Source of the DNA: Pseudoalteromonas gelatinilytica
GTDB taxonomy: Bacteria > Pseudomonadota > Gammaproteobacteria > Enterobacterales > Alteromonadaceae
Direction: 5' to 3'
Assembly (NCBI RefSeq): GCF_001641615.1
Contig: NZ_LRRU01000018.1
Coordinates: 62,001-126,000, forward strand
Length of the DNA stretch: 64,000 nt
Part shown: positions 34,526-38,767 of the stretch, in pieces
Layout: the number at the start of each line of letters is the position of its first letter
How positions within the stretch are numbered: position 1 is the stretch's first letter
Notes under the pieces: model-generated
The model's input: the letters and a program-made list of their open reading frames with translations, nothing else
Told to the model about the DNA's origin: nothing
Databases searched by the model: none
Made by a program: the position numbers and the translations under genes

Positions 34526-36667
34526 ATGGCAAAAAAAAGTAAATTCCTGTCTTGGTTTGGTTTTGGCAAATCAGATAAGCAACAAGCAGAGCAAGCAGCA
34601 AAAGAGGCTGATAACCAGAAGCAAATAGAAGAACAACAGCGAATTGAAGCCGAAAAGGCAGAAGCTGAACGTTTAGAACAAGAACGCATTGCTGCAGAAA
34701 AGTTAGAAGCAGAACGTTTAGAGCAAGAGCGTATTGCTGCAGAAAAGGCAGAAGCTGAACGTGTAGAGCAAGAGCGTATCGCTGCAGAAAAGTTAGAAGC
34801 AGAACGTTTAGAGCAAGAGCGTATCACTGCAGAAAAGGCAGAAGCTGAACGTGTAGAGCAAGAGCGTATCACTGCAGAAAAGCTAGAAGCTGAACGTTTA
34901 GAACAAGAACGTATCGCTGCAGAAAAGGCTGAGGCGGAACGTATAGAACAAGAACGCATTGCGGCAGAAAAGGCAGAAGCGGAGCGTTTAGAGCAAGAAC
35001 GCATTGCTGCAGAAAAAGCAGAAGCTGAGCGTTTAGCTCAAGAGCAGCAAGCGGCAGAACAACAACGTCAAGAACAACAAGCTCGTCTTGCTGAGCAAGA
35101 AGCAGCAATGAAATTAGAGCAAGAACGTGCTGCAGCAGAACAGGCGCAGCGTGAAGCCGAGCAAATTGCTGCAGAAAAGGCAGAGGCAGAGCGTTTAGAA
35201 CAAGAACGCATTGCGGCAGAAAAGGCAGAAGCTGAACGTCTAGAGCAAGAACGCATTGTTGCAGAAAAGGCAGAATCGGAACGTTTAGAGCAAGAACGTA
35301 TCGCGGCAGAAAAGGCAGAAGCTGAACGTGTAGAGCAAGAGCGTATCGCGGCAGAGAAAGCACAAGCGGAACGTTTAGAGCAAGAACGCATTGCGGCAGA
35401 AAAAGCAGAAGCTGAGCGTTTAGAACAAGAGCGTATTGCGGCAGAGAAAGCAGAAGCGGAACGTTTAGAACAAGAACGCATTGCGGCAGAAAAAGCAGAA
35501 GCTGAGCGTTTAGAACAAGAGCGTATCGCTGCTGAAAAAGCAGAAGCGGAACGTTTAGAACAAGAGCGCATTGCTGCTGAAAAAGCACAAGCGGAGCGCT
35601 TAGAGCAAGAACGTATCGCGGCAGAGAAAGCAGAAGCGGAACGTTTAGAGCAAGAGCGTATCGCGGCAGAAAAAGCGGAAGCGGAACGTTTAGAGCAAGA
35701 GAAAGCTGCTCAAGCAGCTGCTGAAAAACCTAAGAAAGAAGGTTTCTTTGCACGTCTTAAAAAAGGTCTATTAAAAACTCGCGTTAATATCGGTTCTGGT
35801 TTTGCGTCTATATTTAGCGGTAAGAAAATTGACGATGAGTTATTTGAAGAACTAGAAACACAATTACTGACAGCCGATTTAGGTGTTGATACAACAATGA
35901 AGTTGATTGATAACCTAACCGATGCAGCCGATCGTAAGCAGTTAAAAGATGGCGATGCTTTATACGAGTTAATGAAGCAAGAAATGGCAAGTATGCTTAA
36001 AACCGCTGAGCAGCCGTTGGTTGTAAGCGGTGAGAAAAAGCCATTTGTTATCTTAATGGTGGGTGTAAATGGTGTAGGTAAAACCACCACGATTGGTAAA
36101 TTAGCGAAGCAGTTCCAAAACGAAGGTAAGTCAGTGATGCTTGCTGCGGGTGATACCTTCCGTGCTGCAGCGGTTGAACAGCTGCAAGTATGGGGTGAGC
36201 GTAATAGCATTCCTGTGATTGCTCAACATACAGGTGCAGACAGTGCGTCAGTGGTTTTTGATGCATTTCAGGCGGCAAAAGCCCGTAATGTTGACGTGTT
36301 AATCGCCGATACAGCAGGGCGCTTGCAAAATAAAGATAACCTAATGCAAGAGCTTGAAAAAATTGCCCGTGTAATGAAGAAAATTGACCCAGATGCACCG
36401 CATGAAGTTATGTTAACTATTGATGCAGGTACAGGTCAAAACGCAATTAGCCAAGTTAAATTATTTAATGAATGTGTTGGTTTAACGGGCATTACTTTAT
36501 CTAAACTAGATGGTACCGCTAAAGGTGGTGTGATTTTCGCCGTTGCAGATAAATTTAATATCCCAATTCGTTACATTGGTGTTGGTGAAGGTATTGATGA
36601 TTTACGTACCTTTAATAGTAGTGACTTTATTGATGCACTATTTAGCCAAGACGAGGATGACGCATAA
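34526..36667 (+). CDS. ftsY: Signal recognition particle receptor FtsY with long repeat domain
   Basis: 713 residues, far longer than E. coli FtsY (497). GTPase that docks SRP-ribosome complexes at the inner membrane. The start ATG at 34526 gives [15 protein letters not shown], a basic amphipathic membrane-targeting start. Residues about 40-395 are the A domain, mostly 15-residue [15 protein letters not shown] units that predict a long charged helix. The NG domain follows: [15 protein letters not shown] (G1), [20 protein letters not shown] (G3), [12 protein letters not shown] (G4/G5). An in-frame ATG at 34361 is rejected because the intervening residues are unlike FtsY. First gene of ftsYEX, with a terminator-like hairpin before ftsE. 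Confidence 0.97.
34649..35053 (+). repeat. In-gene tandem repeat block 1 (45-bp units)
   Basis: Eight units of 45 bases (34649-35008) plus a degenerate ninth to 35053. Each encodes a variant of [15 protein letters not shown]; Leu/Ala alternate at position 4 and Leu/Val/Ile at position 9. The reading frame is kept throughout. Confidence 0.93.
35171..35710 (+). repeat. In-gene tandem repeat block 2 (45-bp units)
   Basis: Twelve consecutive 45-base units, the last one degenerating to ..EQEKAA. The units are more alike than in block 1, suggesting more recent expansion. A Gln-rich spacer of 39 residues (35054-35170) separates the two blocks. Confidence 0.93.
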
Positions 36668-36697: not shown

Positions 36698-36720
36698 CTG
36701 CAAGATGATTGATAACTAAA

Positions 36721-37398
36721 ATGATAAATTTTCAGCAAGTCAGTAAAACATACCCAGGCGGCCATCGTGCCCTTGAAAAAGTCAGCTTTCATATCAAGCC
36801 TGGCGAACTGGCCTTTTTAACCGGGCACAGTGGTGCAGGTAAAAGTACCCTATTGAAGCTTATTAGCTTGATGGAGCGCCCATCGGCAGGGCAGGTGCTT
36901 ATTAATGGTGTTGATTTGAATGCGGTTAAATCACGCCAGATCCCTTATGTGCGCCGCGACATTGGTATCATCTTTCAGAATCACCGCTTACTAGAACGTT
37001 ACTCTGTGTTTGATAATGTTGCCTTACCTTTAATTATTGAAGGCACGCACCACAAGCAAATAGCTAAACGTGTTCACGGTGCGCTTGATAAAGTTGGGTT
37101 ACTTGATAAAGCGAAGTGTAATCCAGCAACCTTATCAGGTGGTGAGCAGCAGCGTGTTGGTATTGCTCGTGCTATCGTCAATTCACCGCCAATTCTATTA
37201 GCTGATGAGCCAACCGGTAACTTAGACCCTGAGCTTTCAATGGACATATTACGTTTATTCGAAGACTTTAATAATCATGGCACAACCGTACTGATTGCAA
37301 CCCATGACATTGGCTTAATTGCGCGTATGCGTTATCGCAGCCTAACACTGAAAGATGGCCGTATGATTGACGATCCGTTAGCTGAGGGGGCACTATGA
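36721..37398 (+). CDS. ftsE: Cell division ABC-type ATPase FtsE
   Basis: 225 residues. With FtsX it regulates septal peptidoglycan hydrolases through EnvC-type activators. Walker A is GHSGAGKST, the signature LSGGEQQR, and Walker B ILLADEPTGNLDP. ATG at 36721 (MINFQQVSKTYPGG) fits the family; an in-frame TTG at 36709 is less likely. Overlaps ftsX by four bases (ATGA), indicating coupled translation. Confidence 0.98.
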   Translation: MINFQQVSKTYPGGHRALEKVSFHIKPGELAFLTGHSGAGKSTLLKLISLMERPSAGQVLINGVDLNAVKSRQIPYVRRDIGIIFQNHRLLERYSVFDNVALPLIIEGTHHKQIAKRVHGALDKVGLLDKAKCNPATLSGGEQQRVGIARAIVNSPPILLADEPTGNLDPELSMDILRLFEDFNNHGTTVLIATHDIGLIARMRYRSLTLKDGRMIDDPLAEGAL

Positions 37399-38381
37399 GT
37401 TTATTGTTTAAAAGCCGCAACAGCCAAAACGAACGTCAGAAAAAGTCATTTTTAGCAGCGCCTTATTTCTTCTTTATTAATCTTATTCGTCAAGGTGTGC
37501 ATAGCTTAGGTGAAATGTGGCGAACACCTCTTGCTTCATTGATGACCATTGCCGTATTAGGATTAAGCTTAACGCTGCCAGCGACACTTTATTTAGTGGT
37601 TAAAAATGTCTCGCAAGTAAGCACTGGCTTTGAAGATGCTGCAGAGATTTCGTTGTTCGTAAAAGAAACTATGAGCGAGCAACAAACACAAACCTTGGTT
37701 AAGCGTTTAGCACTCTACCCTGAAGTAGATAAAGTGGAGTTTGTTTCAAAGGGCGACGCCCTCACTGAATTTAAACAAGTATCAGGATTTGGCCAAGCAC
37801 TTGAATATTTAGATGCGAACCCGTTACCAGATGTTGTTATTGTTACACCGACAGCACGATACCGTCAGCCAAATACGGCAAAACAATTACTGCAAAAGCT
37901 TGAAGCCGAAAGAGAAGTTGATTTTGGTAAACTCGATATTGCTTGGCTTGAGCGATTAAATGCACTTTTAAGTTTATTAAAAGAAAGCGTGATCACCATT
38001 GCTCTACTATTATTAACCTCCGTCACCCTGATCATTGGTAATACTATCCGCTTATCAATCATGGATAAGAAAGATGAAATTCAAGTGATGAAGTTAGTAG
38101 GGGCGACAAACACCTTTATTCATGCGCCATTTTTATGGACAGGGATTTGGTACGGTATTATTGGCGGTTTGTTCTCTTTTATTTGTGTTGCATTAATGAT
38201 GTGGTGGCTTGGTGCTGCTGTAAGTGATGTTGCGGGTGTTTATGAAACCAGCTTTGACTTAATTGGTTTAACACTCTCAGAGTTTGGCATTTTAGTCGCG
38301 CTTGCAACAGGCTTAGGATTTGTTGGTTCTTACCTATCAGTTAACCGCTACATAAAAGAAATTGAACCCGATAAAGTGTAA
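37395..38381 (+). CDS. ftsX: Cell division protein FtsX
   Basis: 328 residues, inner-membrane partner of FtsE. A basic cytoplasmic N-terminus, TM1 near 50-72, a periplasmic loop of about 100 residues that in relatives contacts EnvC, then three membrane helices with the FtsX/MacB-type region SIMDKKDEIQVMKLVGAT. The tail NRYIKEIEPDKV is cytoplasmic. The last base of the stop codon is also the first base of a fold-back repeat element (38381-38542). Confidence 0.97.
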   Translation: MSLLFKSRNSQNERQKKSFLAAPYFFFINLIRQGVHSLGEMWRTPLASLMTIAVLGLSLTLPATLYLVVKNVSQVSTGFEDAAEISLFVKETMSEQQTQTLVKRLALYPEVDKVEFVSKGDALTEFKQVSGFGQALEYLDANPLPDVVIVTPTARYRQPNTAKQLLQKLEAEREVDFGKLDIAWLERLNALLSLLKESVITIALLLLTSVTLIIGNTIRLSIMDKKDEIQVMKLVGATNTFIHAPFLWTGIWYGIIGGLFSFICVALMMWWLGAAVSDVAGVYETSFDLIGLTLSEFGILVALATGLGFVGSYLSVNRYIKEIEPDKV

Positions 38382-38542
38382 TACCAATCGACTTAAGTAT
38401 TTAACCAATCTAGCGAGCTAAATAAAGCGCTAACTGCGTTATAAATTTTTCATGTAGAACTACTATATGTCAAAATATATGCCTTGTTATCACTTCATTT
38501 ATCTGTCGCTATAATTGGTCAGTAACTTAACACGATTGGTAT
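38381..38542. repeat. 162-bp fold-back (MITE-like) intergenic element
   Basis: The ends ATACCAATCG (38381-38390) and CGATTGGTAT (38533-38542) are perfect 10-bp inverted repeats. Inside, the arms remain imperfectly complementary (TTAAGT, ACCAAT, TAGCGA and a central TAGAACTACTATATG palindrome-like stretch), so the element can fold into one long hairpin. It has no ORF. This fits a nonautonomous MITE or an extragenic palindromic repeat; no second copy was noticed in the window. Confidence 0.7.
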
Positions 38543-38673
38543 GAATTTTTTGTTACACTGCTCTTTTAGCGATAAATAGTAGTCGCTGTTAATTTATCAA
38601 AATATCACTCCAAGCTAGAATTCATCGCTTATTCAGCGTGTTAGCGTAGACTAAAAATAGATACAAAAACCAC

Positions 38674-38702
38674 TTGATTTGAACTTTAAAAAAGTTTTTA
38701 AT
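38674..38702 (+). promoter_or_regulatory. Predicted sigma-70 promoter of rpoH
   Basis: TTGATT (38674-38679) and TTTAAT (38697-38702) are separated by 17 bases. The start of transcription would fall near 38709, inside the CIRCE operator. The bases GAACTT at 38681-38686 also equal a sigma-E -35 box, but no good sigma-E -10 follows. Confidence 0.55.
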
Positions 38703-38707
38703 TGAAG

Positions 38708-38734
38708 TTAGCACTCTCGCTTAAAGAGTGCTAA
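38708..38734 (+). promoter_or_regulatory. CIRCE operator (HrcA-binding site) upstream of rpoH
   Basis: TTAGCACTC (38708-38716), nine bases, then GAGTGCTAA (38726-38734): identical to the canonical CIRCE inverted repeat with its 9-base spacer. It ends 33 bases before the rpoH start and overlaps the predicted transcription start. In other bacteria the HrcA repressor binds CIRCE ahead of groESL and dnaK operons. Placement here implies HrcA repression of rpoH. Confidence 0.93.
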
Positions 38735-38767
38735 GATGGTTTCAAATGTTTATCACTGAGGTGAAAA

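Follow-up and report, generated by a model that had tools for sequence, protein, structure and literature searches.

A perfect CIRCE operator at the rpoH promoter of Pseudoalteromonas gelatinilytica points to HrcA as a probable governor of sigma32 synthesis

The repressor HrcA and its operator CIRCE control the groESL and hrcA-grpE-dnaKJ operons of Bacillus subtilis and many proteobacteria, and HrcA/CIRCE and the heat-shock sigma factor sigma32 are usually presented as parallel strategies. What, then, could a CIRCE element be doing in front of rpoH, the gene for sigma32? We addressed this question in a 64,000-nt stretch of DNA from the marine bacterium Pseudoalteromonas gelatinilytica (the window; positions 62001-126000 of one contig in a 4.8 Mb genome of 23 contigs), in which an earlier note had described a perfect CIRCE ahead of rpoH. 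The description proved exact: a pattern scan of the window matched TTAGCACTCTCGCTTAAAGAGTGCTAA to the CIRCE pattern TTAGCACTC-N9-GAGTGCTAA without a mismatch (Table 1), and the downstream ORF is RpoH according to the profiles NF005143 (443 bits, cut-off 241) and TIGR02392 (419 bits, cut-off 323). With 33 nt between CIRCE and the rpoH ATG, it is a heat-shock gene whose promoter or 5´ leader holds the site. It was the sole CIRCE match in the window with up to three mismatches allowed; shuffled windows held a mean of 0.04 such matches (4 of 100 shuffles had one). A search of the whole genome, as the earlier note had proposed, gave no other site with two or fewer mismatches. At three mismatches, eight further places appeared (five for the reversed-pattern control), six of which repeat a single 27-mer, with one base altered in one of them. 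The gene order in the window is ftsY-ftsE-ftsX-rpoH, with fts names that we presume from the sequence, and comparison of rpoH with a plasmid collection returned only homologues at 60-80% identity. Within the ORF read as ftsY, a 45-bp tandem repeat in 24 copies (34630-35701) codes for a long protein repeat.

Table 1. Features at and upstream of rpoH, in window coordinates
Feature	Position	Strand	Basis
ftsE and ftsX, upstream of rpoH	36709..38381	+	ORFs; names presumed
-35-like hexamer TTGATT, proximal rpoH promoter	38674..38679	+	sequence; genus footprinting
-10-like hexamer TTTAAT, just upstream of CIRCE	38697..38702	+	sequence; genus footprinting
CIRCE (HrcA operator; perfect 9-9-9 inverted repeat)	38708..38734	+	pattern scans; genus conservation
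Possible second, extended -10 (TGC-TAAGAT), overlaps CIRCE 3´ arm	38729..38737	+	comparison of rpoH and groES loci
Shine-Dalgarno-like GAGGTG	38758..38763	+	read from sequence
rpoH, sigma32, 287 aa	38768..39631	+	profile matches NF005143, TIGR02392

A promoter had likewise been proposed at CIRCE. Both hexamers are present, with a spacer of 17 nt, and are supported by footprinting across the genus, but the TTGATT/TTTAAT pair was not reported by a generic promoter scan in which A is required at position 2 of the -10. Among 53 distinct loci of the genus, a TTG hexamer was found at -34 or no more than 2 nt away in every case (TTGATT at -34 in 21); positions -11 to -5 relative to CIRCE form a T/A-rich, -10-like block. 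With this block next to CIRCE, the rpoH transcription start would fall inside the operator, in line with the earlier note. The region resembles other Pseudoalteromonas loci: P. lipolytica UCD-48B (L170) shares without change the CIRCE together with 42 bases on its upstream and 36 on its downstream side (locus comparison with blastn). For the possible second -10, the hexamer is weaker in this genome. A T at position 29, the last of the hexamer, makes the extended form TGCTAAaAT; it was present at 110 of 119 named rpoH loci, among the matches listed, compared to 4 of 35 groES-CIRCE loci, and its rarity at the latter implies that this T lies outside the HrcA site proper. Further upstream, between ftsX and rpoH, we also noted a near-palindromic, MITE-like insertion of ~162 bp (38382-38543) that matches its reverse complement at 70.7% identity. 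In close relatives without the insertion, its flanks are 1 nt (L315, L309, L253) or 14 nt (L325) apart, and Pseudoalteromonas entries in the plasmid collection hold related copies.

The proposal of HrcA control turned on the presence of hrcA, and the genome holds one such gene, encoding 314 aa, between grpE and the divergent nadK. The protein scores above the gathering threshold for Pfam PF01628, the C-terminal domain (33.8 bits, gathering 22.2), and below the cut-off for PF03444, the DNA-binding domain (14.8, cut-off 21), while residues 2-85 align to HrcA 1STZ in a phmmer search (E 2.7e-12). The match to NCBIfam TIGR00331 is almost full length (profile positions 2-329 of 338, E 3e-34), and because its 119 bits fall under the equivalog cut-off of 197.2, we filed the protein as a divergent HrcA-family protein rather than a TIGR00331 equivalog. 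When 40 hrcA loci were compared, nadK adjoined the gene in 38 and grpE in 37; two loci (L015 and L028) had neither gene in the stretch examined and one (L029) was without grpE. That these neighbours are kept in most loci points to vertical inheritance of hrcA with losses rather than recent transfer. E. coli, which the earlier note had given as lacking HrcA, was not among the PF01628 matches when included as a control genome.

We then asked how far the site and the repressor gene go together. The operator is conserved in the genus, where 59 of 60 genomes sampled had a strong CIRCE, every one before rpoH (57 without a mismatch, 2 with a single one), and a strong site was not found in G682. The two findings that the earlier note had named as contrary to its proposal, a genome without hrcA and relatives without the repeat ahead of rpoH, were thus not borne out. 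In a sample of 197 genomes of the order, hrcA was detected in 23, all of which had CIRCE with at most one mismatch, while none of the 174 genomes scored as hrcA-negative had such a site anywhere (Fisher P 1.7e-30, a value inflated by the disregard of relatedness). Here and in the family sample, a genome was scored as hrcA-negative if this divergent HrcA found no match in it at E 0.001, a query and threshold with which a distant hrcA could be missed. CIRCE precedes rpoH in all 23 hrcA-positive genomes (14 in family f7, 4 in f20, 3 in f14 and 2 in f1), in agreement with a recount by motif. Eight other sites were read in the order sample (seven with at most one mismatch, one with two), all before groES in families f7 and f14; for f1 and f20, rpoH was the only strong CIRCE target found. 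The family sample of 118 genomes gave a similar picture, with CIRCE (at most one mismatch) in 19 of 19 hrcA-positive and 1 of 99 hrcA-negative genomes and all 20 sites before rpoH. The one genome with CIRCE and no hrcA match, G293, is a congener of two hrcA-positive genomes.

The association is not peculiar to this genome. Across 370 genomes of the class, at least 57 had an exact CIRCE before rpoH, at least 126 had one before groES and at least 19 had both, all lower bounds since the patterns were strict. PF01628 was matched in 277 of the 370, including 56 of the 57 with the exact rpoH site (G418 is the sole exception). The exceptions G682, G293 and G418 possibly stem from assembly gaps. A scan of named contigs revealed at least 120 CIRCE-rpoH stretches, with Pseudoalteromonas, Rheinheimera, Alishewanella, Dyella, Methylocaldum, Aromatoleum, Thauera, Polynucleobacter and Geobacteraceae among the matches listed. 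We also noted tandem pairs of CIRCE before rpoH (L036-L038, L041-L047, L086, L088, L098, L337-L339, L342 and L343) that repeat at an almost constant interval of 31 bp in most cases, 30 bp in L338 and 33 bp in L086 and L339, which suggests two HrcA dimers side by side. CIRCE-like sites at two mismatches only, seen in 11 genomes of the order sample and 3 of the family sample, were set aside as noise, as the reversed control pattern likewise gives scattered matches; four genomes of the genus had one extra two-mismatch site each.

These distributions bear on two alternatives to an HrcA operator in current use. The site might be a relic of an older circuit whose repressor has decayed, a reading encouraged by the divergence of HrcA and its score under the NCBIfam cut-off. 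We regard this as very unlikely, given that 57 of 59 genus sites keep all 18 arm positions, the arms being invariant where N9 and the flanks vary, that no internal stop interrupts hrcA in the four genus genomes inspected and its N-terminal region is conserved, and that genomes of the order sample without an hrcA match are also without the site. Alternatively, a different repressor might recognize the palindrome in place of HrcA, whose binding here is predicted from the sequence. The exact CIRCE consensus and the split of 23 of 23 hrcA-positive against 0 of 174 hrcA-negative genomes leave such a repressor a barely credible candidate.

Comparison of the rpoH loci also revealed a second element at the operator. 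A profile of 117 named loci, among the matches listed, shows GGAACTTT at -16 to -9, followed by TC of the CIRCE left arm and then T (0.60), A (0.46) and A (0.74). We take the GGAACTT-type element to be that of a sigmaE promoter, and at the named loci a predicted sigmaE-type promoter would thus have a -10 that starts in the CIRCE left arm. Among the matches listed, GGAACTT with at least six of seven bases lies at exactly -16 in 38 of 119 loci, compared to 10, 9 and 4 of 119 at -17, -15 and -14; at groES-CIRCE loci it was found at -16 in 0 of 35, even at five of seven. The sigmaE-type -10 is looser: it reads exactly TAA in 20 of 119 loci and ends in A in 87 of 119, again among the matches listed. 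When the whole promoter was scored (at least 10 of 12), the -10 fell inside CIRCE in 48 of 82 named loci among the matches listed, with 1.6 expected from shuffled flanks; the other 38 of the 120 loci were omitted under a stricter RpoH motif, as duplicates or for short flanks. The arrangement (GGAACTT, ~N16, TC and onwards, running through the rpoH CIRCE) recurs in many beta- and gamma-proteobacteria among the matches listed (L100-L219), including species of the Halieaceae or Dyella type.

The arrangement differs closer to the window. In the order sample, a sigmaE-type promoter was found nearby in 19 of 23 loci (0.5 expected), but only 4 place its -10 within the rpoH-proximal CIRCE; at other loci, it lies within the upstream CIRCE of a tandem pair, above it, or ~30 bp upstream, and in genera of f1, such as that of L091, a -10 of TCAAA sits in N9. 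A scan of 34 loci for sigmaE-type promoters gave no match in 9, and GGAACTT at exactly -16 was seen in 0 of 30 loci of the order and family samples, even at five of seven. Within the genus, a sigmaE-type promoter was seen at about -40 to -44 in 7 of 53 distinct loci, with 0.1 expected. These do not include the window's own rpoH, which gave no sigmaE-type match in the scan around CIRCE.

An inverted repeat in a 5´ leader could also act mainly as RNA, as a hairpin that governs how stable the rpoH mRNA is or serves as a thermometer. CIRCE is known to affect mRNA stability in Bacillus, and a 10-bp stem was predicted in both the MFE and the centroid folds. However, the leader folded no better than shuffles (z -0.23), and among 71 distinct rpoH-linked sites none of the 15 deviating pairs was compensated (9 broken, 6 G-T). 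The 48 of 82 named loci, among the matches listed, with a sigmaE-type -10 inside CIRCE also speak against the hairpin, since transcripts from that promoter would lack the left arm, as does the close tracking of hrcA by the repeat. RNA structure as the main function is thus quite unlikely, and was rejected on the missing compensation and the shuffle-like folding.

If CIRCE at rpoH serves HrcA, how are the chaperone genes controlled? In this genome, neither groESL nor hrcA has a CIRCE, and groESL is preceded by a sigma32-type promoter, CTTGGAT-N13-CCCCAT, which would leave rpoH as the only strong site for HrcA. Thirty groES loci of the genus were fetched and 23 could be read (the pattern missed the other 7, or their upstream sequence was too short). 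A sigma32-type promoter scoring at least 10 of 13 precedes each of the 23 (1.92 expected), and none has a CIRCE with fewer than six mismatches in the 200 nt upstream. The groES of this genome does have TTAGCACTC, a perfect left half of CIRCE, ~69 nt before the ATG (L220), with the right arm gone. This half-site was found in only 4 of the 23 genus loci read and, being unconserved by that count, was rejected as an operator and taken as chance or a relic. Of 38 loci, 19 hold a sigma32-type promoter scoring at least 11 of 13 in the gap between nadK and hrcA, where mononucleotide shuffles predict 0.19; the match for this genome's hrcA is 11 of 13, with a weak -10. A sigma32-type promoter at hrcA-grpE suggests negative feedback and, together with that at groESL, likely forms a loop in which sigma32 would raise both HrcA and GroE and HrcA would repress rpoH. 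These data lend support to the hierarchy put forward in the earlier note, in which HrcA would repress sigma32 synthesis and sigma32 would drive the chaperone genes.

Taken together, CIRCE very probably serves HrcA as a functional operator at the rpoH promoter. HrcA made from the nadK-hrcA-grpE locus elsewhere in the genome would bind CIRCE over the rpoH start and block RNA polymerase. When unfolded protein occupies the chaperonin, HrcA would become inactive and rpoH would be derepressed; sigma32 would then drive groESL, which is without CIRCE, and probably hrcA-grpE too, closing a negative feedback loop. GroE-dependent HrcA activity is known from Bacillus subtilis; at this locus, we infer HrcA binding, the transcription start, repression, GroE dependence and feedback from the DNA. 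We also lean, with only modest confidence, towards a broader reading: in much of the beta- and gamma-proteobacteria, HrcA would be mainly a governor of sigma32 synthesis, with an rpoH operator interlocked with a sigmaE promoter, so that HrcA would also gate the envelope-stress input to heat shock. In Pseudoalteromonas and fellow members of its family, control would be narrowed to rpoH in a closed loop in which sigma32 makes HrcA and GroE and GroE-activated HrcA shuts rpoH, so that all chaperonin control would run through the sigma factor.

HrcA/CIRCE and sigma32 would thus form a series circuit here, with one well-known heat-shock switch apparently placed under the control of another. The arrangement is seen in 23 of 23 hrcA-positive genomes of the order sample, where the constant target is rpoH and not groESL. 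In E. coli and other lineages that lack HrcA, a brake on sigma32 at the level of transcription may have been lost. The E. coli rpoH gene has sigma70 promoters, the sigmaE-dependent P3 and an mRNA thermosensor. It lies in the same ftsYEX-rpoH neighbourhood, and its P3 has the sigmaE spacing seen at many CIRCE-rpoH loci, but E. coli is without HrcA, whereas the proximal rpoH promoter of the window is without a sigmaE-type match. The classic HrcA/CIRCE system at groESL and hrcA-grpE-dnaKJ shares its operator sequence and repressor family with the circuit described here; unlike in that system, the target is rpoH, groES and hrcA are without CIRCE, and HrcA is divergent. CIRCE before rpoH is already known as a kind from Geobacter sulfurreducens, where a site at -51 was predicted in 2004 (Table 8 of PMC545781); there, too, a perfect CIRCE directly before rpoH was recognized by sequence prediction. 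Titles and abstract openings in the literature searched, whose scope did not take in the 2003 survey of Permina and Gelfand (cited in PMC545781), held nothing on HrcA control of rpoH in Pseudoalteromonas, and within that literature the single-target regulon, the divergent HrcA and the sigmaE interlock look new. According to PMC545781, G. sulfurreducens has CIRCE also at groESL and hrcA-grpE-dnaK-dnaJ, whereas rpoH is the only strong site in this genome. The same source gives groESL as the only constant HrcA target of the delta-proteobacteria, as earlier in other bacteria; in our order sample, by contrast, the constant target is rpoH.
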